Below, piece after piece: positions 7,490 to 40,694 of a stretch of 59,919 nt of DNA. Source of the stretch: Phycisphaerales bacterium (GTDB lineage: Bacteria > Planctomycetota > Phycisphaerae > Phycisphaerales > SM1A02); the NCBI GenBank assembly GCA_022446795.1, contig JAKVBX010000007.1, positions 59,788-119,706 of the forward strand, read 5' to 3'. The notes beneath the pieces were generated by a model that was given only the letters and a program-made list of their open reading frames with translations, did not search any database and was not told the origin of the DNA. A program made the translations under genes and the position numbers. Each line of letters starts with the position of its first letter. Position 1 is the stretch's first letter.

Positions 7490-7810
7490 TCAGGCGCCGC
7501 CGGAGTTCATCTCGGAGATGAAGTCGTCCTTTCCCGAGGCGTCCATCGTGTCGAACTTCGACTTGCAACCATTGCAGCAGAAACCAATGGCGTTGCCCTT
7601 CCACTGGCTCGTTGCGCAGTTCTCGGGAAGCGCTCGGCCGGAGATCGGGCATGCATCATTCATCATGCCCAGGCGGGGCTCAGGTTGGCCGCACTGGCAG
7701 GGTGGTGGGCACTTGCAATCGACGCACGAGCAGGCGTTCTCGGTGGTCTTGCATCCACCGGCGAAGCACATGGTGCCGACGACGAAGAGAACGGTCAGAA
7801 GCTGTTTCAT
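7490..7810 (-). CDS. small YHS-like metal-binding lipoprotein
   Basis: A 106-aa predicted lipoprotein: signal peptide with lipobox FAGGC, lipidated Cys at residue 20. A Cys-rich spacer (SCVDCKCPPPCQC) follows, then a YHS-like segment with CPISG at 54-58 and GFCCNGCKSKF at 76-86. In YHS/TRASH families these cysteines bind transition metals such as copper or zinc. The start at 7810 replaces a frame that is open 46 codons further upstream but has no signal peptide in that extension. A role as an envelope metal-binding or sensing protein is inferred; no metal transporter is adjacent. It converges on the gene at 5104. Confidence 0.75.
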   Translation of the reverse strand: MKQLLTVLFVVGTMCFAGGCKTTENACSCVDCKCPPPCQCGQPEPRLGMMNDACPISGRALPENCATSQWKGNAIGFCCNGCKSKFDTMDASGKDDFISEMNSGGA

Positions 7811-7876
7811 GGCGGGGTCTCCGGAATGGGCGTCTGTTGAACCTGGGATCCTACCACGTTCTCGCCAAAAAGAGAG

Positions 7877-7920
7877 CCGGCCCCTCCGGACGCCGTTGGG
7901 GGGCGTTCCGGAAGGGCCGG
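7877..7920 (-). terminator. rho-independent terminator
   Basis: A long GC-rich hairpin (CCGGCCCCTCCGGACGCC paired to GGCGTTCCGGAAGGGCCGG, with mismatches) followed on the minus strand by CTCTCTTTTTGG. It lies 29 bp past the stop of the minus-strand gene ending at 7949, the expected place and strand for its terminator. Confidence 0.85.
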
Positions 7921-7948
7921 TCTGTCGATCGCACTCGTCGGTCGTCAC

Positions 7949-9259
7949 TCACCCAGTGACGGAGTTGTTGCTCAGGTAGTCGAGCAGTTCGGCGAGGCGG
8001 TCGACAACCATGTAGTCGAGGTTGTAGAGGTCATCGTTGACGTTGTAGAGATTCTCGGTTCCGTTCCAGATCAGGAAGTCTTCGACGCCCAGGTCACGCA
8101 TCACGTTGATCTGCAGGCTGACGTCTTCGAGGGGGGCGACTTCGCCGTGGTGGGCCGAGCTGCCGTTGAAGACCGTCATGCTGATCATCGGCATGATCTC
8201 GACCGGGGTGCCGTCCTGACGCAGGAGGGAGCGGCTCGTCTCGATGCCAAGGGCGGTGTAGTCAGCGATCTTGTGGTGCTTGACATCCTGGTTTCCCCAG
8301 GGCATGTAGATGACGGGGCAGGCGAAGTCGAGGCCCTCGAGGATCCCGTAGGCAGCGGCGTACTCGTAGCCACGCATCCGGCGAACCTGACCCTCGATCT
8401 GCGAGTTGCCGAAGGGATGCGGCGTGGTGATCTCGTACAGGCCGAGCTTGGCGTTGGGGAAGACGTCGCGGGCGACCTGGATGCGGAGGATGTAGGCGTC
8501 GAGAATGCGGTCCAGCATCTCGGGGTTGTACTTCTCGTGTGCGGAGTCCAGGTACCGGCCCCACATCCGCGGGCTGAAGTCATGGCCTTCGATGTCCAGG
8601 ATGACGGTGCCATCCGTATTGGTGTCGATGCCGTAGAAGTTGGCGTAGTAGCGGAGGTAGTCGGCGATCTCGTCGCTGGTGTGGTTGAGCACCTTCTCCA
8701 TGCCCTCGGGGGTACCGGTGTTGGAGACCAGGAAGCCGTAGGCGGACACGCAGACGGCGTTATTGCGGACGCCCAGGTTGTGGAAGGGGCTCGCGTCCTG
8801 GACATAGCGGTGCTGCAGCATCAGGGTGGCGCCGCTGAGGACGGTCTCGGCGAGGTCGGACTCGGAGGGGGGAGCCGGGCTGCCGTAGTTGGCGATCAGG
8901 ACCATCAGGTCGTTGACGTTGATCTGGGCATCCTTGTTGATGTCGCCGTGGCAGTCCGAGTCGTTGCAGGGCGAGCCCAGCAGGGGCAGCAGGGTCATGA
9001 TGTCGTTGACATCGACCCAGCGGTTGTTGTCCAGGTCACAGTCGGTCGGCGTGGGGTTGGCAACCTTGCTGGAACTGCTGGGGGAGGAGGTGACGGCCGC
9101 GACGGTTGCACGACGGTTGTTCTTGCGAGTGTCCTTGCGAGCGGCGGAGGCGTTTTGGGTGCGGCTCTTGCTGGCGGAGGTCTTGGTGGCGGCGGTGGCG
9201 TCGATGGAGGGCAGCAGCAGGGTGCTGGCCGCGATCATGGCGGTCAGGGTGAACTTCAT
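7949..9259 (-). CDS. secreted TIM-barrel-like protein with N-terminal dockerin pair
   Basis: A 436-aa exported protein. A signal peptide ending about ATAA is followed by a Lys/Arg/Ser/Thr-rich linker (residues 28-75). Then come two dockerin-type loops (DLDNNRWVDVNDIM and DINKDAQINVNDLM) and a roughly 270-residue C-terminal domain. That domain contains ILDIEGHDF, YEITTPHPFG, CPVIYMPWG and DFLIWNGTENL, the spaced acidic and aromatic strand ends expected of a TIM-barrel glycosidase. It is reminiscent of hyaluronidase-like folds but not assignable to a GH family by eye. Unlike the other nine dockerin proteins in the window, its dockerin is at the N terminus. The start at 9259 gives the signal peptide; the frame upstream is just open. 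A strong terminator follows at 7877-7920. Confidence 0.75.
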   Translation of the reverse strand: MKFTLTAMIAASTLLLPSIDATAATKTSASKSRTQNASAARKDTRKNNRRATVAAVTSSPSSSSKVANPTPTDCDLDNNRWVDVNDIMTLLPLLGSPCNDSDCHGDINKDAQINVNDLMVLIANYGSPAPPSESDLAETVLSGATLMLQHRYVQDASPFHNLGVRNNAVCVSAYGFLVSNTGTPEGMEKVLNHTSDEIADYLRYYANFYGIDTNTDGTVILDIEGHDFSPRMWGRYLDSAHEKYNPEMLDRILDAYILRIQVARDVFPNAKLGLYEITTPHPFGNSQIEGQVRRMRGYEYAAAYGILEGLDFACPVIYMPWGNQDVKHHKIADYTALGIETSRSLLRQDGTPVEIMPMISMTVFNGSSAHHGEVAPLEDVSLQINVMRDLGVEDFLIWNGTENLYNVNDDLYNLDYMVVDRLAELLDYLSNNSVTG

Positions 9260-9286
9260 GGTTTTGTTTTCCGTTCGAGGGGTGAG

Positions 9287-9300
9287 GGTGAGGGTCGAGG
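9287..9300 (+). repeat. 14-bp direct repeat, copy 1
   Basis: GGTGAGGGTCGAGG, identical to 9437-9450 exactly 150 bp away. The core TGAGGGTCG recurs a third time at 9837-9845 in a stem-loop. Confidence 0.6.
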
Positions 9301-9436
9301 TCTTGCTTCCGGTCGCTTGGCCGGCACCAGTGAGTGACTCAGTCGTGGAGTCGGTGTCGGGATTGAGGCAGACCGATCGCGCGGTCCGGGAGCAGGTGCT
9401 CATGGAGGGGTTCCGAGGTCAATGGAATGGAGGGTT

Positions 9437-9450
9437 GGTGAGGGTCGAGG
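9437..9450 (+). repeat. 14-bp direct repeat, copy 2
   Basis: GGTGAGGGTCGAGG, second copy of the repeat at 9287-9300, in the upstream region of the dockerin gene that starts at 9259. Confidence 0.6.
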
Positions 9451-9783
9451 CCGGGTCTGGGTTCGGTGGTCCCTCGCAGAGGGGCGAGGGGTTCAGAGGG
9501 CGTGGAGTGTTGAGCGTGCGAGTGAGTTTCGCTTGCCGTCTCCATTACCACATACGGTGGTCAGCCTGTCTTGTGAGCCCTGTTGGCAAGATTGATATCG
9601 TGAGAAGTTGAAACGACCTTTGGGTGTTTCATCGGACCGCGCTCATGTCTATTGATATGTACCGGACTGTGTCGACTGCTCTGGCGGGGCGGTCCAGGGG
9701 CACGCACGGCCCGTGCATGGCGAATCAACCGATTCTTTCTCAGATTCAGCACACATCTGCGAAGTCGACCCGTAAAAGGGGTG

Positions 9784-10418
9784 CTGGCGACAAATGAGGT
9801 GTCTGCCAGCGGGTTTGGTGACCGGTGATCGGACGATGAGGGTCGTCCTCCACCGGCCTCCCGGATCGCGAAGGCGATCTGAATGTACGCCCTGGGCTTG
9901 GTCAGCCAGGGCATCAGCCGAGAGGCAGCCAGGTGAGGGCCTGGCCGCATCGGCTGGAACGGGGGCCCATCCTGTCGAGCAGCAGCTCCAGGGCGGCTCC
10001 CAATCGAATCCGAGGCTCGCCGGTGCCAGCACCCACTGAGGTGCGGGCATCGGCCGTTTTGGCCTCCCGTAGCCTGCTGGCCGCTTCTTCGGCCGCGGGC
10101 CACCCGGGGCGGAAATGCCGCCAACCCGGCCATTGCAGGGGTCTGGAACGGGGAATTGACCGGGCGGCGGGGGAAGCACCAAATAGTCCGGCAAATCGAC
10201 ACACACATCGGGACTCACCCCGTATTCAAGGTGCTCCCAACATGTGGTGTGTTGATCTAGAGGCTTCGGCCTCTCGGGAGCAGACAGCTTGGCAGCCAGC
10301 GGATGGACTGAGGGGCTCATCTGCGATCGGCGGCTCGAATCTCGAGGGCGATTCGGACCACATGCCAAGAACAGTCCAGGCGCCGCCCCGCGGGCATCAG
10401 CTCGTGGGGCGGTGCCTG
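9784..10418 (+). ncRNA. candidate large structured RNA
   Basis: Consecutive, non-overlapping stem-loops pack this interval. 9784-9809 has 5+4 bp. 9822-9856 has CCGGTG/CACCGG outside GGACGA/TCGTCC. 9864-9879 has GATCGC/GCGATC, 9889-9912 has GCCCTGG/CCAGGGC, and 9915-9956 has CAGCCG/CGGCTG outside GCCAGG/CCTGGC. Further hairpins are at 10029-10044, 10052-10064, 10079-10094 and 10104-10129. A 14-bp helix with one bulged G pairs 10195-10208 with 10242-10256. 10259-10274 is AGAGGC-TTCG-GCCTCT, a C(UUCG)G tetraloop that favours the plus strand. The last hairpin, 10377-10418 (13 bp, then CATTTT), is a plausible terminator. Two loops are both TGAGGG. The conserved cores of RNase P RNA, tmRNA, SRP RNA and group II introns were looked for and not seen. 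The 5' end is unknown. It could instead be a long leader of icd. Confidence 0.35.
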
Positions 10419-10591
10419 CATTTTGGGGTCGACCCCGGGGAACCGGCCACGGGGAGTGGCGTTCTGAGGATCCGAGCCTCGGGACCCCGCCAGGGCCGTG
10501 CTAGAATCCGGGGCTCAGGTCCGCGAGCGGGAGGCGTCATGCCCACCGCCGTGGGCAATCACCGTCCCCAACACCCCATGACCCCTGTTGA

Positions 10592-12823
<2,232 letters not shown>

Positions 12824-21055: not shown

Positions 21056-22588
21056 ATGATTCGAATGGCAACTGTCCTGCTGGCGGCGACGGCATCGAGC
21101 GCAGATCCCATTCCGATCCAGTGCATCGTCGATGTCCACTGTGATCCGATGGCCGATTCCCAGGCGGTTCAGGCGCAGCAGTACCTGGACTGGGTCGAGT
21201 GGGTTGACTGGGGCCTGGATCAGGCCGAGGCCGTTGGGGGCAGGATCTCCTTCCTCTCGACCGGGCAGTTCATGGAGTGGGTTCTCGAGGACCCGTCCCC
21301 CGCGGAGTCGGTCAATCTCATTCCCCGCCTGGCCGCCAGTGGTGATGATTTCATCGGCACGCATTCGCACAAGAAGTGGCGGCAGTCGGCCCACGTCTGG
21401 CCCGACCTGGGCCCGAACCCCACCGATGCAGAGATCGAGTCGCAATGGGTCGATCACCAGGACCTGGTGAACCTGGTCATCCAGGACCAGTTGGGCCTGA
21501 GCGATCCGGCCGAGATCCAGGCGATCAACTGCGTCCGCGGAGCGCATCTGCCCAGTGAATCGGATGAGGCGTTCTTCCAGGAATTGGCAGTGGCCTACAA
21601 CTTCCCGATCCGCGAGCAGGGTCCCGAGGAAGCCTTCTACGCCTACTTCGATCATTTCGTCTGGCATCCATTCCGTCCATCGACGGACAACCTGCTGGTG
21701 CACAATCCTGACGGGCCGATGATCATCTCACCCTTCGGTCCCGTGCTCGGGCCCATTGGTGTCCATCACGGCATCCTGCAGGACATGTCACACCGTGCCG
21801 TCAAGTCCCGGTTCATCATGGAACTTCTGAACTGGTTGGACGAAGCGGCCTTTGGTGACCAACCCCACGTCTGGTCGACCGGATGGAGTGCCCACTGCGC
21901 CGACCTGGTTCCAGGTGGTGTCTCCCATGACGCTTGGGCCGACATGTTCCAGTGGATGGCCACGCACTTCGTGAACGAAACGGTCGCGGGTCTGCAGGCA
22001 GTCGAGTTCAGCACCATGAAGGCATCTGCCCAATTGCATGAGCAATGGGAGAGTGACTATCCGGGCGTCGTGCCGTTCAGCTACGAACCGGAAGAGGTGG
22101 ACGTGGACGCCTACCCATGGTCACGAGCCATTCACACGTACCTGGTTCATCTGCACTGGGGGGTGGCCATGCCTCCGCTGGGCGTGGTTCGCTGGCATCA
22201 CCTGTCCGAGCCTGACAGTGATCGACAGGCCTATGTCCTGTGGACTCGGACCGGTTCCGAACTGGTCGTCGATCTCTCGACGCATCTCGACACTGGTCTT
22301 GACTGGGTTGCCGTGGAACCTCATCGTGGCCACTATCGTCACATCGATCCGGAGACGGTTCCGGTTCGGTTCGCGGGCACCATCCTGGTACCCAGCGATG
22401 CCATCGAGCAGTTTGAGTGGCTGGCTGATCTCGACGAGAACGGTGCCGTTGACATCACGGACCTCCTGGCGCTGCTGGACGCCTGGACGGGATGCCCTGA
22501 TCTTCCCGCGACCTGTCATGCCGACTTGAACGGAGATGGTCTCGTCGGGATCGACGACCTGCTCCAGTTGCTTGGTGACTGGGACTGA
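21056..22588 (+). CDS. secreted polysaccharide-deacetylase-like protein with dockerin pair
   Basis: A 510-aa exported protein. After a short signal peptide (MIRMATVLLAATASSA) comes a domain with IVDVHCDPMADS, GGRISFLSTGQF and DDFIGTHSHKKWRQ. The D and the HSH arrangement resemble the D-His-His metal site of NodB/polysaccharide deacetylases, followed by the RGAHLPSESDEAFFQEL motif. The C-terminal end has two dockerin loops (DLDENGAVDITDLL, DLNGDGLVGIDDLL) and ends LLGDWD. The frame is open 61 codons upstream, but the ATG at 21056 begins the signal peptide and has AGGGAG before it. Deacetylase activity is tentative. It converges on the gene ending at 22688, with a hairpin between. Confidence 0.7.
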   Translation: MIRMATVLLAATASSADPIPIQCIVDVHCDPMADSQAVQAQQYLDWVEWVDWGLDQAEAVGGRISFLSTGQFMEWVLEDPSPAESVNLIPRLAASGDDFIGTHSHKKWRQSAHVWPDLGPNPTDAEIESQWVDHQDLVNLVIQDQLGLSDPAEIQAINCVRGAHLPSESDEAFFQELAVAYNFPIREQGPEEAFYAYFDHFVWHPFRPSTDNLLVHNPDGPMIISPFGPVLGPIGVHHGILQDMSHRAVKSRFIMELLNWLDEAAFGDQPHVWSTGWSAHCADLVPGGVSHDAWADMFQWMATHFVNETVAGLQAVEFSTMKASAQLHEQWESDYPGVVPFSYEPEEVDVDAYPWSRAIHTYLVHLHWGVAMPPLGVVRWHHLSEPDSDRQAYVLWTRTGSELVVDLSTHLDTGLDWVAVEPHRGHYRHIDPETVPVRFAGTILVPSDAIEQFEWLADLDENGAVDITDLLALLDAWTGCPDLPATCHADLNGDGLVGIDDLLQLLGDWD

Positions 22589-22608
22589 ATCGACCTTCTG
22601 AAATGACG

Positions 22609-22657
22609 CCGCCCCACCAACGGAGCAGGTGAGTGCCTGCTGCAGTTGGCGGGGCGG
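22609..22657. terminator. stem-loop between convergent dockerin genes
   Basis: CCGCCCCACCAAC pairs with GTTGGCGGGGCGG (13 bp, one A/C mismatch) around a 23-nt loop. It lies between the convergent stops at 22588 and 22688. It shares the GGCGGGGC core with three other hairpins next to dockerin genes. Confidence 0.65.
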
Positions 22658-22687
22658 CCGGGTCTCCAGTGTCGCCACTGGCATGGA

Positions 22688-25126
22688 TCATCCTGTGCAG
22701 TTGAATGATGACAGGACCAGCAGCAGGTCATCGATATCAACGATGCCGTCGCCATCCACGTCATTCCCGGGGCTGCTGGAGCCCCAGGCGCCAATAACGG
22801 CCAGGACATCTTCAACATCTACGCTGCCACTGCCATCGACATCGGCAGGACACGGAATGGTCTCGACGAAGCCGAGGACATCGCTCCCGGCTTCTGTTCC
22901 GTGGTCCGACGACGCACAGATCACGGCGGTATCACCGAGCCAGGCCGCATCGATGGTTGATCCCAGGTCACCATCATCGATGGCATCCAGGTATGACAAC
23001 TGGTGGGCATCGGGGTCGCCGGCAGTCCAGCGGACCTGGCCGACGGCATCACTGCCACCATACGGTCGTTCCGACCAGGCGAGCAGGATCTCGTTCGACT
23101 CCGACAGGTCCGCCGCGAGACATGACGGTGCGTGATCACTTCCGGTGTCGATCTGCATGACGTCCTGGAAGTCGCCCGATGGTGTCATTTCAATCACGTG
23201 CAGCGAGGCGTCGTCCTCGTGGCTGTAGGCCATCACGCCATATCCACTGTCATTGACCGTGAACTCGAAATGGAGCGGATCCTCGGACAGTTCCGCGATG
23301 ACCAGGGCGCTGCCCTGTTGGCTTCCGCCGTTGCCATAGGTGCGATACTCCAGTTCGTAGTTGCTGGGTGTGCTATGGACATAGGCGACTCCAAAGAGGC
23401 CGCTTGGAAGTGCGACGACATGCGTCCGGTGATTGTCGTAGCCGGAGTAGTAGGACGTGCTCACCAGTCGGGCGTCAGCCAGATCTCCGTTGCTGTCGAT
23501 CATCCGGACGTAGGACAGGCGGTTATCCTCGCCGCCGCGGTCAAAGCCACAGCAGGCCGTGCCATCAGCACCAAGGGCCAGGTCGAGCGTGTCCGCATTC
23601 GTGCCGGAATTGTGGGGGTCATAGTCCCAGGTCGTGACCCGGACGTTGTCACCAACAGGCTGCAACTGCATGTCGAATCGCTGGAGGTAGGCATTTCCAA
23701 ATGACTCGCGATCGTCGGACCATGCAACGGCGATGCCCGACTCATTGGCACGGACAACGGGATCGGTGGCGTAGGCCTCCTGGTCGAGAACATCCTGGAC
23801 CCGGATCTCATCAGTGGTCGGCTGGCCATCGGCATCAAAGCCCCGGAGATAGATGACGAACTGGCTGTTTGAGGTGGTGAGCACCTTTTCCCGCCAGGCG
23901 GCTACGAATCCACCCCCGGGAAGGGCCGCGATGGCCGCCTTGTCCTGGTCGGCCGTGGTGGTGTCATCGCTGGCCTGCTGGACCGGGCCGTACTTGTCAC
24001 CGTCGGCATCGATCGCTCGGCAGTACACGTCCAGGTCAGAACTGGATTCGCCTTCTTGGTTCCAGGTCAAGACCAGTTCGCCACTTGTTCCGGTGGTGCT
24101 CTGCGAGAGCGAGATCTCGCTGATGGTGGCGCTTTCACCGGGGTTGTCCGCCGACTCGGAATAGAGCATTCGGCTGGAGTTCGCCTGGGGCAGTCCGTCC
24201 GGGGAGATCACCTGGAACATGATGTCCTGGTCCTCGGTCAGCCAGTACTGGTTCCAGCCGCCGCCGGCGCGTGGCGCGAACTGGCTGGCGTCGACGATGA
24301 TCGGGTCGCTGAGGAAGTTGCCATAGGCATCCGTCGTTCGGACGTAGTACTGCGAACTCGGGTTGTCATTTTCGGCAATCCAGTACAGCAGGTTCGTCCC
24401 GTCATCGGAGGGGAAGACCTGGACCTCGGGCGTGTCGATCGTCTCTTCACCGGACGCCAGTTGATGGGTGCTGCTCGGTGCCCCATTCTCGTCCAGCAAC
24501 TGGACATTCGGGAGCGTGAGGTAGGTGTCATCATGGAATGGGAAGGCCGCCAGGATGGAGTTGTCGGCCTGCAAGGCGATGAAGGGCCCGCCGATCCAGA
24601 ACTCGTCCGGACCAAAGAGCGTTGGGCCATGAAGGAGTGAGCCACTGGGGCTGTAGACGGCGGTGTAGAGTTCATCATGCCGCCAGGCGAAGACGACATT
24701 GCCATCGTGATTGATCAGGATGTCGGATTCGGATGATGGGCCCTCCGCGTTCGAGTCGAATTCGAAGATGGCGCTCGAGGCGGTGCCGTCGGAATCGAGC
24801 CAGATTCCGTGGGTATCGCCATCGTTCCAGCAGACGAGGATCTCGCCAGCTGGCCCGGTGACAACCGTGGGTCGATAGGAATAGCCGTCGAGTCCCGTCA
24901 GGGTCGAACTTGGGGCGGCAGGCGTGCCATCAGCGGGAATGAGACGCAGGCGAATGTTGAATTCGTCGCCTCGCCGGTCACGCCAGATGGAAATGACACC
25001 GTCCTCTGTGCGTACGCTCGCCCCGTGGTCTTGCCTCCAGCCCTGGCCGTTCAGTTCTTCATTGAGCGTGGAGGCGTCCCAGGCGGGAGCCGCCAGACAT
25101 GTCAGTGTCAATACGACGGAGATCAT
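22688..25126 (-). CDS. large secreted beta-repeat protein with C-terminal dockerin pair
   Basis: An 812-aa exported protein of unknown function; signal peptide MISVVLTLTCLAAPA. Residues 25-745 are repeating beta units of the type GxxVxxWxDxRxG / G...VxAWREK / IAVAWSDDRESFGNAYLQRFD, which suggest a beta-propeller-like fold. Two dockerin loops (DVDGSGSVDVEDVL, DVDGDGIVDIDDLL) follow, and the chain ends FNCTG. An N-flanking PCP and a C-terminal Cys frame the dockerin. It is a paralogue of the protein at 25558-28038: the same N-terminal sequence pattern (WRQDHGAS...RRGDEFNIRLRLIPADGTPAAPS) recurs there. The start at 25126 sits at the signal peptide. A surface-binding role is possible. Confidence 0.75.
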   Translation of the reverse strand: MISVVLTLTCLAAPAWDASTLNEELNGQGWRQDHGASVRTEDGVISIWRDRRGDEFNIRLRLIPADGTPAAPSSTLTGLDGYSYRPTVVTGPAGEILVCWNDGDTHGIWLDSDGTASSAIFEFDSNAEGPSSESDILINHDGNVVFAWRHDELYTAVYSPSGSLLHGPTLFGPDEFWIGGPFIALQADNSILAAFPFHDDTYLTLPNVQLLDENGAPSSTHQLASGEETIDTPEVQVFPSDDGTNLLYWIAENDNPSSQYYVRTTDAYGNFLSDPIIVDASQFAPRAGGGWNQYWLTEDQDIMFQVISPDGLPQANSSRMLYSESADNPGESATISEISLSQSTTGTSGELVLTWNQEGESSSDLDVYCRAIDADGDKYGPVQQASDDTTTADQDKAAIAALPGGGFVAAWREKVLTTSNSQFVIYLRGFDADGQPTTDEIRVQDVLDQEAYATDPVVRANESGIAVAWSDDRESFGNAYLQRFDMQLQPVGDNVRVTTWDYDPHNSGTNADTLDLALGADGTACCGFDRGGEDNRLSYVRMIDSNGDLADARLVSTSYYSGYDNHRTHVVALPSGLFGVAYVHSTPSNYELEYRTYGNGGSQQGSALVIAELSEDPLHFEFTVNDSGYGVMAYSHEDDASLHVIEMTPSGDFQDVMQIDTGSDHAPSCLAADLSESNEILLAWSERPYGGSDAVGQVRWTAGDPDAHQLSYLDAIDDGDLGSTIDAAWLGDTAVICASSDHGTEAGSDVLGFVETIPCPADVDGSGSVDVEDVLAVIGAWGSSSPGNDVDGDGIVDIDDLLLVLSSFNCTG

Positions 25127-37849: not shown

Positions 37850-39496
37850 ATGAAACCTTCAATGACGACCCGTGGATTTTCCGCGCTCCTGGCGACGCTC
37901 GTTCTCTCGACCTCGACCGTCGTGATGAGCGCAGCGGCTCAGGCAGAGGTCCAGGAGGCCTATGTCTACAACGGTGACTACTTCAAATTCACTGGCGTGT
38001 ATGGCGCCAACGGTGGCAACGAGATTGCGCATGCGATGGTCTTCAAGAACCTGGGGATGCTCGATGCCAATGGGCGGCTGCCCCAGGTCGATCTGACCGT
38101 CGACAATTACATTCGGCAGGGCGATGTCATCGTCGGACGAGTCATTCACTGCAATACGGAATCCGGTCACCTGGATGCCTGTATCTACGAGACCCTTGAC
38201 GGGACGAAGCGTGCCTATGACCTGTCGAATTCAGCAACACTCCGGCAGGCCTGGAACGAGGTTGCTGCTGATGGCGAGATCACCATCCTCAAGCATGGGT
38301 TGGAAACTCAGTTCTCCGATGAAACGTCCCTGTACGGCGGTGCATTGGCGCTTGATGATGGTGAGTTCTACGCCGGATTCCGTAACGAGGGTGACACGGC
38401 CGATACCGGAACGGGACTCGGTGTGCAGGCTGGTCCGTATGAACTCCCGCCGCGGCCGGGGGCAGCCATCACCATCAAACTCATGGTGTGTCATGGCGAC
38501 ATGGACTTTGATGGCTTCGGTTCCGGAACCTCCGTCGTGGACTCGGCGAAGAACATCGGCGGTGTGACCGCGGTCAGTGGCGCCGCCCACGAGATCTACG
38601 TTGGATGCACGGTCCAGTTTCCTGGCGCGACCGAGGCCCAGAAGAAGGCCGCTCGTCGAATGGTCGGGAAACTCGCGGTGGAGCGTGGGTTCGTGACGAA
38701 GGATGGCCGTCCTGACCCGGGAGCCCTGTTCCGATCCGGAACGCTCAAGGTCCGCACGAACATCCTGGATGACATCGAGTCCACGCTGGGCGTGACAGGC
38801 AAGCTGACCTGGTACGACACGGAGGACGTCTCTGCGGCGCCTCACTGTGAACTGGTGGATGGCCCGGCCAGTGATTTCTTTTCATCAGGAAATGTCCAGG
38901 GGTGCCAGGCGGTTGATGTCGATGGCGGGATCATCCACCGGGATGTCGACGGTCCGGGCCAGGACGAGTCGCTCACCAGCACGTTGATCGTGTATCCCGG
39001 TAGTGCACCCGGTCCTCGACCGATCGAAATCGTCGAGACTCAACTTGATGAGATGATCGTCCCCGACGGTCTGGCGCCGGTGTGCGCGCCCGTCACCGTG
39101 CGGAAGTACGGAGTCGATCCCGTGCTGGACCTCAACTGGGAAGCCGAGTTCTTCTTTGAATATCCCCAGGTCGGTCCAGAACCCATCGGGCTGTATCGCC
39201 TCGAGGCTGACGGAACGCTCGTCCCCGATGACTTCGGCTGGTACGACCCCTGGGCGTTCGTTGGCGGCACCATGGTTCGCGAAGGTGGGACCTATGTCCT
39301 GCTCGGCGAGGCGGTCGAGCCGCGAACGGCCGACTTCAACCTGGATCGCCGAGTGGATATTGATGACCTGCTGGAACTGTTTGACGCGTGGGGCGACTGT
39401 CAGTTGTCCTGGTGTCAGCATGACCTGGACAATGACGAGCGGATCGCCGTTGATGACCTGCTCGTCGTCCTCAGCCAGTGGGGCAGTGACTTCTAG
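37850..39496 (+). CDS. secreted protein of unknown fold with C-terminal dockerin pair
   Basis: A 548-aa exported protein (signal peptide ending AQA-EV) whose main domain is not recognised. It begins VQEAYVYNGDYFKFTGVYGANGGNEIAHAMVFKN and contains TVDNYIRQGDVIVGRVIHCN and a beta-rich middle. Two dockerin loops (DFNLDRRVDIDDLL, DLDNDERIAVDDLL) close it at WGSDF. The start at 37850 has AAGGAA upstream and gives the signal peptide; the frame is open 28 codons further. No operon partner. The 263-bp gap upstream (37587-37849) shows no clear promoter. Confidence 0.7.
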   Translation: MKPSMTTRGFSALLATLVLSTSTVVMSAAAQAEVQEAYVYNGDYFKFTGVYGANGGNEIAHAMVFKNLGMLDANGRLPQVDLTVDNYIRQGDVIVGRVIHCNTESGHLDACIYETLDGTKRAYDLSNSATLRQAWNEVAADGEITILKHGLETQFSDETSLYGGALALDDGEFYAGFRNEGDTADTGTGLGVQAGPYELPPRPGAAITIKLMVCHGDMDFDGFGSGTSVVDSAKNIGGVTAVSGAAHEIYVGCTVQFPGATEAQKKAARRMVGKLAVERGFVTKDGRPDPGALFRSGTLKVRTNILDDIESTLGVTGKLTWYDTEDVSAAPHCELVDGPASDFFSSGNVQGCQAVDVDGGIIHRDVDGPGQDESLTSTLIVYPGSAPGPRPIEIVETQLDEMIVPDGLAPVCAPVTVRKYGVDPVLDLNWEAEFFFEYPQVGPEPIGLYRLEADGTLVPDDFGWYDPWAFVGGTMVREGGTYVLLGEAVEPRTADFNLDRRVDIDDLLELFDAWGDCQLSWCQHDLDNDERIAVDDLLVVLSQWGSDF

Positions 39497-39517
39497 TCCT
39501 CCAGGGCTGATCGGGGA

Positions 39518-39554
39518 GGCGGGGCCGATGCGCCGGTTGGTGCATCGGCCTCGC
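39518..39554. terminator. stem-loop between convergent genes
   Basis: GGCGGGGCCGATGCGCC pairs with GGTGCATCGGCCTCGCC (one mismatch, one wobble) around a short loop, between the stops at 39496 and 39609. A strong bidirectional terminator candidate. Confidence 0.75.
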
Positions 39555-39608
39555 CCATTCCCGTGAGGCTGCGGATCATGCGGAAGGCGAGGGCGGCCCG
39601 TCCGGGAT

Positions 39609-40694
39609 TCACTCGCAGTCCTGCCCAAAATCATCCAGCAGGATGAGCATGTCAACGACGTCGACCGTGCCATCACCGTCGATGTCGGCGCTGGAGTCAC
39701 TGGTGTTCCAGGCCGCCAGCATGCCCAGGATGTCATTGATGTCGACCGTCTGATCGCCATTGATGTCACTGGGGCAGGGGACGGGACCTGGCTTGCGATG
39801 ATTCAGCATCCAGTCGACCGCCCGGGTTGCAAAGAGGTTCTGGTTCAGGGGGTCACTGTTGCGGCGGAAGTTCGGGACATGCTCTGAGCCGTTCATGGTC
39901 CAGAGCTCCACGGTGACTCCCTCCGTACAGTTCTGGCGATAGATCGTGCTCGTTGTTTCGTTGCCGCCGACGCTCCAGTCGAGATTGAACGCCGGGCCGC
40001 CGTCCTCGCTGATGACATCACACTGGTTGTAGTCGACCCAGTTGAGCACGGACTCCTCGGCGCCCGGGTAGCACTGGAAGAAGAAGCAGCCGCCGTCGTA
40101 CTCGATGGTCGAGTCGGCGGTTCCGTGGAGGTGCAGGACGTGGACCTGCTCGCTGGGCGTGCAGTCGGACGTGTCCAGGAAGGTCACTCCGGCCAGTGGG
40201 ACGATCGAGGCGATCAGGTCCGCATGGTCACAGGCCATGCGGTAGGACATGAAGCCGCCATTTGACAATCCCGTGAAATGAATGCTCAGGTCGTCCACGG
40301 CATACTGGGCCTGGACCAGTTCAACGATCTGACGAAGGTAGCCCGAGTCGTCGACGTTGGTATTGAAGATGTCGCAGCAGGCATCGGTTGCATTCCAGAA
40401 GGGTTCGTCGGTGAAGTCCCGGTTGCCTTGCGGCACGCAGAGCAGGAACTGCTTCTCGTCGACCTGGTTGGACAAGTTGTAGTAGGCCTCGATCTCGGGT
40501 CCGGTCTGGGTATATCCATGAAGGGCGACGATCAGCGGGAGGGGTTGGGTCCCGTCATAGTCGGAGGGCAGGTAGACGGGGACCAGGCCTCGGCCGTTGT
40601 CGATGTACTCCACCGTGGACCCATGGGTCACGGCGGGCAGAAGCAGGACGGTAAGTGTGGAGAGGATGAGGGGGTTGATCATGAACCTGAGCAT
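39609..40694 (-). CDS. secreted PHB-depolymerase/feruloyl-esterase-like hydrolase with dockerin pair
   Basis: A 361-aa exported alpha/beta hydrolase. Signal peptide MLRFMINPLILSTLTVLLLPA. The oxyanion motif is ALHGYTQTG, the nucleophile is in TGLSNGGFMSY, Asp is in HGTADSTI and His in GSEHVPNF, giving the triad of the poly-hydroxybutyrate depolymerase / LpqC-like esterase family. Cys pairs suggest disulfides. Two dockerin loops follow (DINGDQTVDINDIL, DIDGDGTVDVVDML), ending FGQDCE, with PCP before them. The substrate is probably an ester-linked polysaccharide or polyester, but unproven. The first Met of the frame is further upstream; 40694 was chosen for its charged n-region. Confidence 0.85.
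   Translation of the reverse strand: MLRFMINPLILSTLTVLLLPAVTHGSTVEYIDNGRGLVPVYLPSDYDGTQPLPLIVALHGYTQTGPEIEAYYNLSNQVDEKQFLLCVPQGNRDFTDEPFWNATDACCDIFNTNVDDSGYLRQIVELVQAQYAVDDLSIHFTGLSNGGFMSYRMACDHADLIASIVPLAGVTFLDTSDCTPSEQVHVLHLHGTADSTIEYDGGCFFFQCYPGAEESVLNWVDYNQCDVISEDGGPAFNLDWSVGGNETTSTIYRQNCTEGVTVELWTMNGSEHVPNFRRNSDPLNQNLFATRAVDWMLNHRKPGPVPCPSDINGDQTVDINDILGMLAAWNTSDSSADIDGDGTVDVVDMLILLDDFGQDCE

Follow-up and report, generated by a model that had tools for sequence, protein, structure and literature searches.

A strongly folding candidate RNA element beside icd in a Phycisphaerales bacterium and a covarying, genus-wide family of RNAs with GAGGG loops

The window (the whole 59,919-nt stretch of Phycisphaerales bacterium DNA analyzed here) contains an intergenic region that separates icd from a divergently oriented gene for a secreted protein, and within this region lies the stretch 9784-10418, which has a GC content of 66% (Table 1). 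The product of the secreted-protein gene gave no family match above a cut-off and is presumably dockerin-like, as judged from its repeats. Comparisons within the genus covered six genomes, namely the genome that holds the window and its relatives G144, G145, G146, G147 and G148.

Table 1 Features of the secreted-protein gene-icd locus (window coordinates; starts and ends of units A and B are putative).
Feature	Position	Strand	Basis
Secreted-protein gene, proposed regulated gene	7949-9259	-	start set from a comparison to the G147 protein
Leader of the secreted-protein gene (nine CCCTC), proposed target	9260-9546	-	site count
Promoter-like block of the secreted-protein gene (TCACAAG..CGTATGT)	9550-9576	-	conserved in G147; assigned by eye
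Promoter-like block 1 (ATTCAGCACACA-N15-CGTAAAAGGGG), before unit A	9744-9781	+	two-box matrix, 11.0
Unit A, with two UGAGGG-loop hairpins	9778-10189	+	folds
Hairpin GGACGA[UGAGGG]UCGUCC	9831-9848	+	fold, loop-motif scan
Hairpin GCCAGG[UGAGGG]CCUGGC	9928-9945	+	fold, loop-motif scan
Promoter-like block 2 (AATCGACACACA-N15-CGTATTCAAGG), before unit B	10194-10231	+	two-box matrix, 16.3
Unit B, three-way junction closed by UGCUCCC/GGGAGCA	10230-10418	+	fold
Hairpin with C[UGAGGG]G loop	10299-10324	+	fold, loop-motif scan
Hairpin CGAAUC U[CGAGGG]C GAUUCG, resembling the family P4 loop	10336-10355	+	fold
Final GC-rich hairpin, then TGCATTTT; possible terminator	10377-10418	+	inverted repeat I1
TGCTAGAAT, extended -10-like element of icd	10499-10507	+	by eye, in all six genus genomes
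icd, monomeric isocitrate dehydrogenase; neighbor outside the system	10598-12823	+	PF03971, E 0, 1278 bits

An earlier note, made from the letters of this DNA, had proposed a large structured RNA at this place, and the folding analysis bears out that the stretch is an outlier. Its minimum free energy was -346.9 kcal/mol, far below that of dinucleotide shuffles (plus strand, z -7.46; minus strand, z -7.98; 20 shuffles per strand); both strands folded equally well, so the strand is not given by folding alone. When the window was tiled into 93 stretches of 635 nt (mean z -0.89, sd 1.24), 9784-10418 had the lowest value at -6.95, followed by a runner-up at -4.0. Regression of folding energy on dinucleotide content, based on 560 stretches (589 cut) that all came from elsewhere in the same genome, placed it at a residual of -5.6 sd, the next lowest being -3.3. 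At a scale of 200 nt, z values of -3.1, -3.0 and -3.4 were obtained in the first half and weaker values in the second. Since values down to -4.8 occur elsewhere in the window at this scale and the stretch is not extreme there, the folding signal resides in the series of hairpins and in no single one of them. The hairpins named in the earlier note were found in the sequence and in the folds. Rfam 15 returned no match in the window at the gathering threshold, and three sub-threshold matches under relaxed settings. The runner-up 635-nt stretches of the window lie at 38994-39628 and 22484-23118 (z about -4.0).

The key feature of the element proved to be its repeated TGAGGG loop, which had previously been seen on two hairpins. 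Between 9744 and 10430 the plus strand carries four YGAGGG, all of which lie in hairpin loops when one stem mismatch is allowed, compared with about 0.015 such hairpins expected from a 440-kb background sample. This background was lowered by two for the family copy of the same genome (see below), from which one such match was listed; without that correction the expectation is 0.016. Under a stricter test that allowed no mismatch, only two TGAGG of the element lay in hairpin loops, and a genome-wide count of TGAGG in hairpins showed no enrichment. The GAGGG 5-mers of unit A were predicted to be unpaired with a probability of 0.8 (0.32 for the unit as a whole), but the two of unit B with only 0.52 and 0.55 when all 641 nt were folded, which counts against the pairing model set out below.

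Instead of a single 635-nt molecule, the element probably comprises a pair of tandem units starting at about 9778 and 10230, each preceded by a promoter-like block. These blocks were scored using a two-box matrix whose training set comprised the promoters of six RNAs and of four genes at other loci, with the window and the G147 icd locus excluded. Eighteen matches were listed in 907,414 positions; the top one belongs to the training set, some overlap one another and several more fall within genes. Among the 18, block 2 ranked 5th, the block at the same place in G147 4th and block 1 13th. Block 1 is the weaker of the two and also gave a weak match (15.4 bits) to R1, a core sequence profile described below. 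The second-best match in the sample, AACCCTCACACC-N13-TCCGTAGGTGG at L069:14620 on the minus strand of contig C9, falls within a predicted gene and precedes another predicted start by 180 nt. No terminator was seen at the end of unit A ahead of unit B. Unit B also holds two YGAGGG hairpins and the final GC-rich hairpin, for which the earlier note had described a following T-run. The hairpin itself stands, with 19-nt arms that are 84% complementary and are followed by TGCATTTT, but it is long and GC-rich with a poor T-run, and a terminator scan made no call.

The closest counterpart was found at the same place in G147, where the same secreted-protein gene and an intergenic region of ~1 kb adjoin icd. 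Alignment of the two intergenic regions revealed one core, window 10194-10267, that is 83% identical over 74-75 nt. It includes the 14-bp helix 10195-10256 of the earlier note, which exists in the window but is poorly kept in G147: 9 of 22 pairs of the core hairpin are broken on the aligned columns, although a one-base shift would restore some. The helix was on these grounds dropped as an RNA element, and the core was re-read as a promoter followed by an RNA 5' end; the 5' arm of the helix falls in promoter-like block 2, and most of the core consists of promoter-like block. Unit B and its G147 counterpart are both predicted to form three-way junctions closed by UGCU.../...AGCA, with the outer helix rearranged once the 242-nt G147 RNA is folded in full, and the G147 element folds only moderately (z -2.76). 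In G147 (L011), a 17-bp hairpin with the loop AUGAGGGAAG precedes the icd start by about 200-240 nt and is the one clear YGAGGG hairpin of that copy. In searches with the core pattern, genome contigs yielded the G147 contig only, viral contigs yielded none, and a sample of 397 genomes of the class (with G147 outside the sample) yielded only the genome of the window. The G147 element as a DNA query against 181 family genomes produced, beyond the two known loci, only matches of 20-32 nt in five genomes, and blastn found no homologous DNA in the surroundings of the remaining secreted-protein gene and icd copies.

Elsewhere than at the icd locus, a structured RNA of ~290 nt was identified beside polysaccharide-type genes in all six genomes of the genus. 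The core sequence profile R1 had given weak extra matches at window 9744-9833, a span that takes in the beginning of the element, and at a locus in G148 (E 0.024), and still weaker ones in G146 (E 0.17-0.33). Reading of the neighboring loci by eye then showed that the G148 locus follows a paralogue of the secreted-protein gene, and that the same place holds an RNA-like element in each of the six genomes. The six copies were aligned over 352 columns, for which RNAalifold predicted 74 pairs, 31 of them changed on both sides, with 91.2% of cells paired. These 31 double changes compare with 16.1 in shuffled alignments, and none of 500 shuffles reached the observed value on four of five measures; the fifth, the number of further pair types, was not above shuffles (77/500). 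Sliding the pair partners as a control lowered pairing to 37-45%. The P3-P4-P5 domain gave the same picture, with 13 of 25 pairs double-changed and 0/500 shuffles as high on four of the five measures (347/500 on the fifth). Folded singly, three of the six copies had z values of -4.9, -6.3 and -5.5. The GAGGG 5-mers of P4 and P5 were unpaired with probabilities of 0.80-0.84, against about 0.3 for whole RNAs, and a third GAGGG in the 5' domain of five copies was unpaired with 0.22 to 0.88. All six copies end in a strong hairpin, followed by six or more T in three copies, by a broken T-run in two and by no T-run in the copy of the same genome as the window. Of the ten RNAs or units counted, some of which overlap, nine have no CCCTC of their own. 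Neighboring genes include a family-2 glycosyltransferase (PF00535) and an O-antigen-ligase-like protein that scored below its cut-off.

A covariance model of P3-P4-P5 (R2) found one copy per genome in all six genomes of the genus. Among 175 other genomes of the family it gave no convincing match, with hits in G022, G077 and G078 at E 0.2-0.4 taken as chance, and none of the 396 others in a 400-genome sample of the order reached E 0.01; the two samples overlap and were searched with stricter filters, under which weak matches are lost. Rfam gave no match at the gathering threshold in any of the six family loci, nor at the icd locus of G147. Overall, a real and covarying genus-wide family of GAGGG-loop RNAs is well supported, so far found in one genus of planctomycete bacteria only. 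The portions of the literature on small or structured RNAs of Planctomycetes and Phycisphaerae that were consulted contained no description of it.

The relation of the window element to this family was traced through G147. R2 had no credible match to the element (two chance-level matches elsewhere in the window had E 2.7 and 3.8), and the element is for this reason called a divergent relative and not a family member. A profile built from the six copies had its best match in about 450 kb at the G147 icd-locus element (E 1.3e-4 for columns 1-147; E 7e-4 for the full-length profile), with the first ~45 nt and the promoter-like block making up most of the match. In the window, six-copy profiles gave weak matches in the right order and on the right strand, at 9749-9787 (E 2.6, third of its profile) and, for the middle part of the family, at 10306-10362 in unit B (E 0.67, best of that profile). 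Kinship would thus run as a chain from the family to the G147 icd-locus copy and from there to the window, with both links lying mostly in the promoter and the 5' end. The element shares with the family a two-box promoter-like block followed by a GGKGUGC start, and, in unit B, two adjacent YGAGGG-loop hairpins about 30 nt apart (loops at 10309 and 10343), with the U-type loop first in unit B and the C-type first in the family. On this chained evidence from sequence, the window element and its same-place counterpart in G147 are read as a divergent, probably tandem relative of the family, although the resemblance may also have arisen independently out of a common promoter and loop logic.

Several other readings of the stretch were weighed against a functional RNA. 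GC-rich intergenic DNA might form hairpins by chance, and both the base composition and the modest z values at the 200-nt scale are in keeping with this, but the lowest z of all tiles, the regression residual, the excess of the loop motif and the covariation in a related RNA family make it very improbable. The earlier note's alternative of a very long icd leader, or of another cis-acting element of icd, has the position upstream of icd on the same strand in its favor, yet the conserved -10-like TGCTAGAAT, about 90-110 nt ahead of the icd start in all six genomes (by eye), lies downstream of the element and upstream of icd and so separates the two. Furthermore, four of the five relatives have a small gene next to icd, and their sequence there shows no similarity to the element. 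The element thus lies neither between this promoter-like sequence and icd nor before icd in most relatives, and the leader reading can be given hardly any weight. The note's other proposal, a free structured RNA, gains support, and the related ~290-nt family shows covariation.

A protein on the minus strand of the core was considered as well, because the core reads TTCWxHLEYxVSxxVCVD in both the window and G147. The minus-strand translation of window 10183-10269, KPLxxxTTCWxHLEYxVSxxVCVD in both genomes, found no relatives. Similarity fades beyond the core (39% overall), the open frames are unequal (283 and 100 aa), and searches of 181 family genomes, viral contigs and Pfam gave no convincing relative, those of plasmids a best E of 4 and of PDB a best E of 1. 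This reading was rejected accordingly, and the chance that a small protein accounts for the core is minimal. More serious is the possibility that the family RNA functions elsewhere and the window element is a decaying or unconstrained duplicate that has kept its GC-rich hairpins. R2 does not match the element, its body fails to align with the family, its good conservation with G147 is confined to the promoter-like block and 5' end, and the counterpart there folds only moderately. Conversely, the element outfolds every other sampled stretch, carries four YGAGGG hairpin loops and shares the unit B junction with G147, and we regard decay as unlikely.

A candidate target of a functional RNA lies next to it. 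The 288-nt leader of the secreted-protein gene contains nine CCCTC, against 0.27 expected, which is the top count for a span of this length on both strands of 440 kb (the next is 4), and three of the nine are placed at 9277-9294, just ahead of the start codon. Leaders of the orthologues, each delimited by the start codon and, approximately, by the promoter-like block, contain three CCCTC in G147, G145 and G148, two in G144 and one in G146 (0.13-0.22 expected in each), whereas two homologues in another genus, which has no R2 match, have none in 290 nt each. At least two CCCTC within 60 nt occurred in one of 215 usable upstream regions, namely that of this gene when 9403 is taken as its start. 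The six whole genomes contain seven instances of the pattern CCCTCN{1,4}CCCTCN{1,4}CCCTC, three of them in the leader of this gene, and one of its reversed control. The gene (window 7490-9403 in this comparison) adjoins icd in only two of the six genomes and in the remaining four is found in a polysaccharide-type locus, divergent from its paralogue. A copy of the RNA lies within about 2 kb of it in every one of the six, including the two with the gene beside icd, which argues for a working link.

Taken together, we favor, with somewhat better than even confidence, the interpretation that a trans-acting small RNA is encoded on the plus strand of the stretch and acts by base pairing, its GAGGG loops binding CCCUC near a ribosome-binding site. 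The RNA would be transcribed as the two tandem units, at about 9778-10189 and 10230-10418, whose hairpins would present the repeated hexaloop [C/U]GAGGG. These loops would pair with CCCUC(A/G) in the leader of the secreted-protein gene (9259-7949, minus strand), where three such sites crowd the ribosome-binding site, and translation would be altered as a result; repression is the simplest guess. In four genomes the secreted-protein gene has a promoter-like block of the type found at the RNA (assigned by eye; these sites were used in training the matrix), and in the window the block of the divergent gene falls below the cut-off of the matrix. As gene and RNA have the same kind of block, such control would form a feed-forward loop, a circuit we infer from these blocks.

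Pairing was scanned by an accessibility-corrected, ungapped search of 317 entries. By best site, the secreted-protein gene ranked 55th for unit A, 5th for unit B and 6th for the family copy of the same genome; by number of sites it ranked 3rd, 3rd and 1st, or 1st, 1st and 2nd when entered with its other start. These ranks indicate that the CCCTC array is distinctive and that no one site is exceptional. The low CCCTC counts in the leaders of G146 and G144 (1 and 2) speak against the pairing model, and the CCCTC run could serve another purpose, for example as a DNA-binding site. A more specific form of the pairing model, which we put forward only tentatively, is a multivalent comb in which identical GAGGG hexaloops bind the CCCUC array and both combs grew together in this species (four loops, nine sites), where the target gene sits beside icd with its own RNA copy. 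If so, the number of loops and the dose of RNA, instead of one seed, would set control.

The YGAGGG hairpins might instead bind protein and not mRNA, as a sponge of the CsrB kind for some RNA-binding protein. Proteins of the CsrA type bind GGA, and the sponge RNAs CsrB and RsmZ consist of many hairpins repeating one loop motif, with GGA in most loops; multi-hairpin sponges of such shape are known. The element resembles them in its many hairpins with one repeated loop motif, and the same loop recurs on separate hairpins and is kept through covarying stems. However, the YGAGGG hexaloops surveyed carry GAGGG without GGA, and a sponge would leave unexplained the complementary CCCTC array in the mRNA of the adjoining gene, so that we consider it a rather doubtful alternative to base pairing. 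Other large structured bacterial RNAs are OLE, GOLLD and ROOL. With these, and with the Rhodopirellula-1 motif that is listed for Planctomycetes (PMC2864571), the element shares its nature as a structured intergenic RNA, but neither the window nor the family loci had a gathering match to the Rfam models searched.

The nearest known parallel to the base-pairing model is LhrC of Listeria, which the consulted part of its report describes as a multicopy small RNA family with redundant identical pairing sites, whose binding impedes translation of a target encoding a cell-wall-associated protein (PMC4132741). The present RNAs would resemble it in these respects. The element has, in its sequence and predicted fold, several exposed identical sites complementary to those around a ribosome-binding site. 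The polarity is reversed, however, as the LhrC sites are CU-rich and here the RNA would provide the GAGGG loops and the mRNA the CCCUC, and LhrC was proven by experiment whereas the window RNA is known from its sequence and predicted fold. The window RNA would thus amount to the LhrC principle with several sites and reversed polarity. The inventory of small RNAs is still very thin for the Planctomycetes-Verrucomicrobia-Chlamydiae group, to judge from the part of a review table that assigns it 8 entries versus 345 for Proteobacteria (PMC9029176). Within this group the RNA would be a covariation-supported family located next to polysaccharide-type genes, and its target would be concrete and open to testing. 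RNA and target leader can also be traced together in two genomes in which the target gene sits at a different place.

Blocks of the same kind also occur at a further locus of this genome. Upstream of the window (C67), two tandem similar genes (L065:10094 and L065:13035) are both preceded by a GCACACA/TCACACA...AGCATAG/AGCGTAG block like that of the RNA and secreted-protein genes, and a wider regulon is possible.
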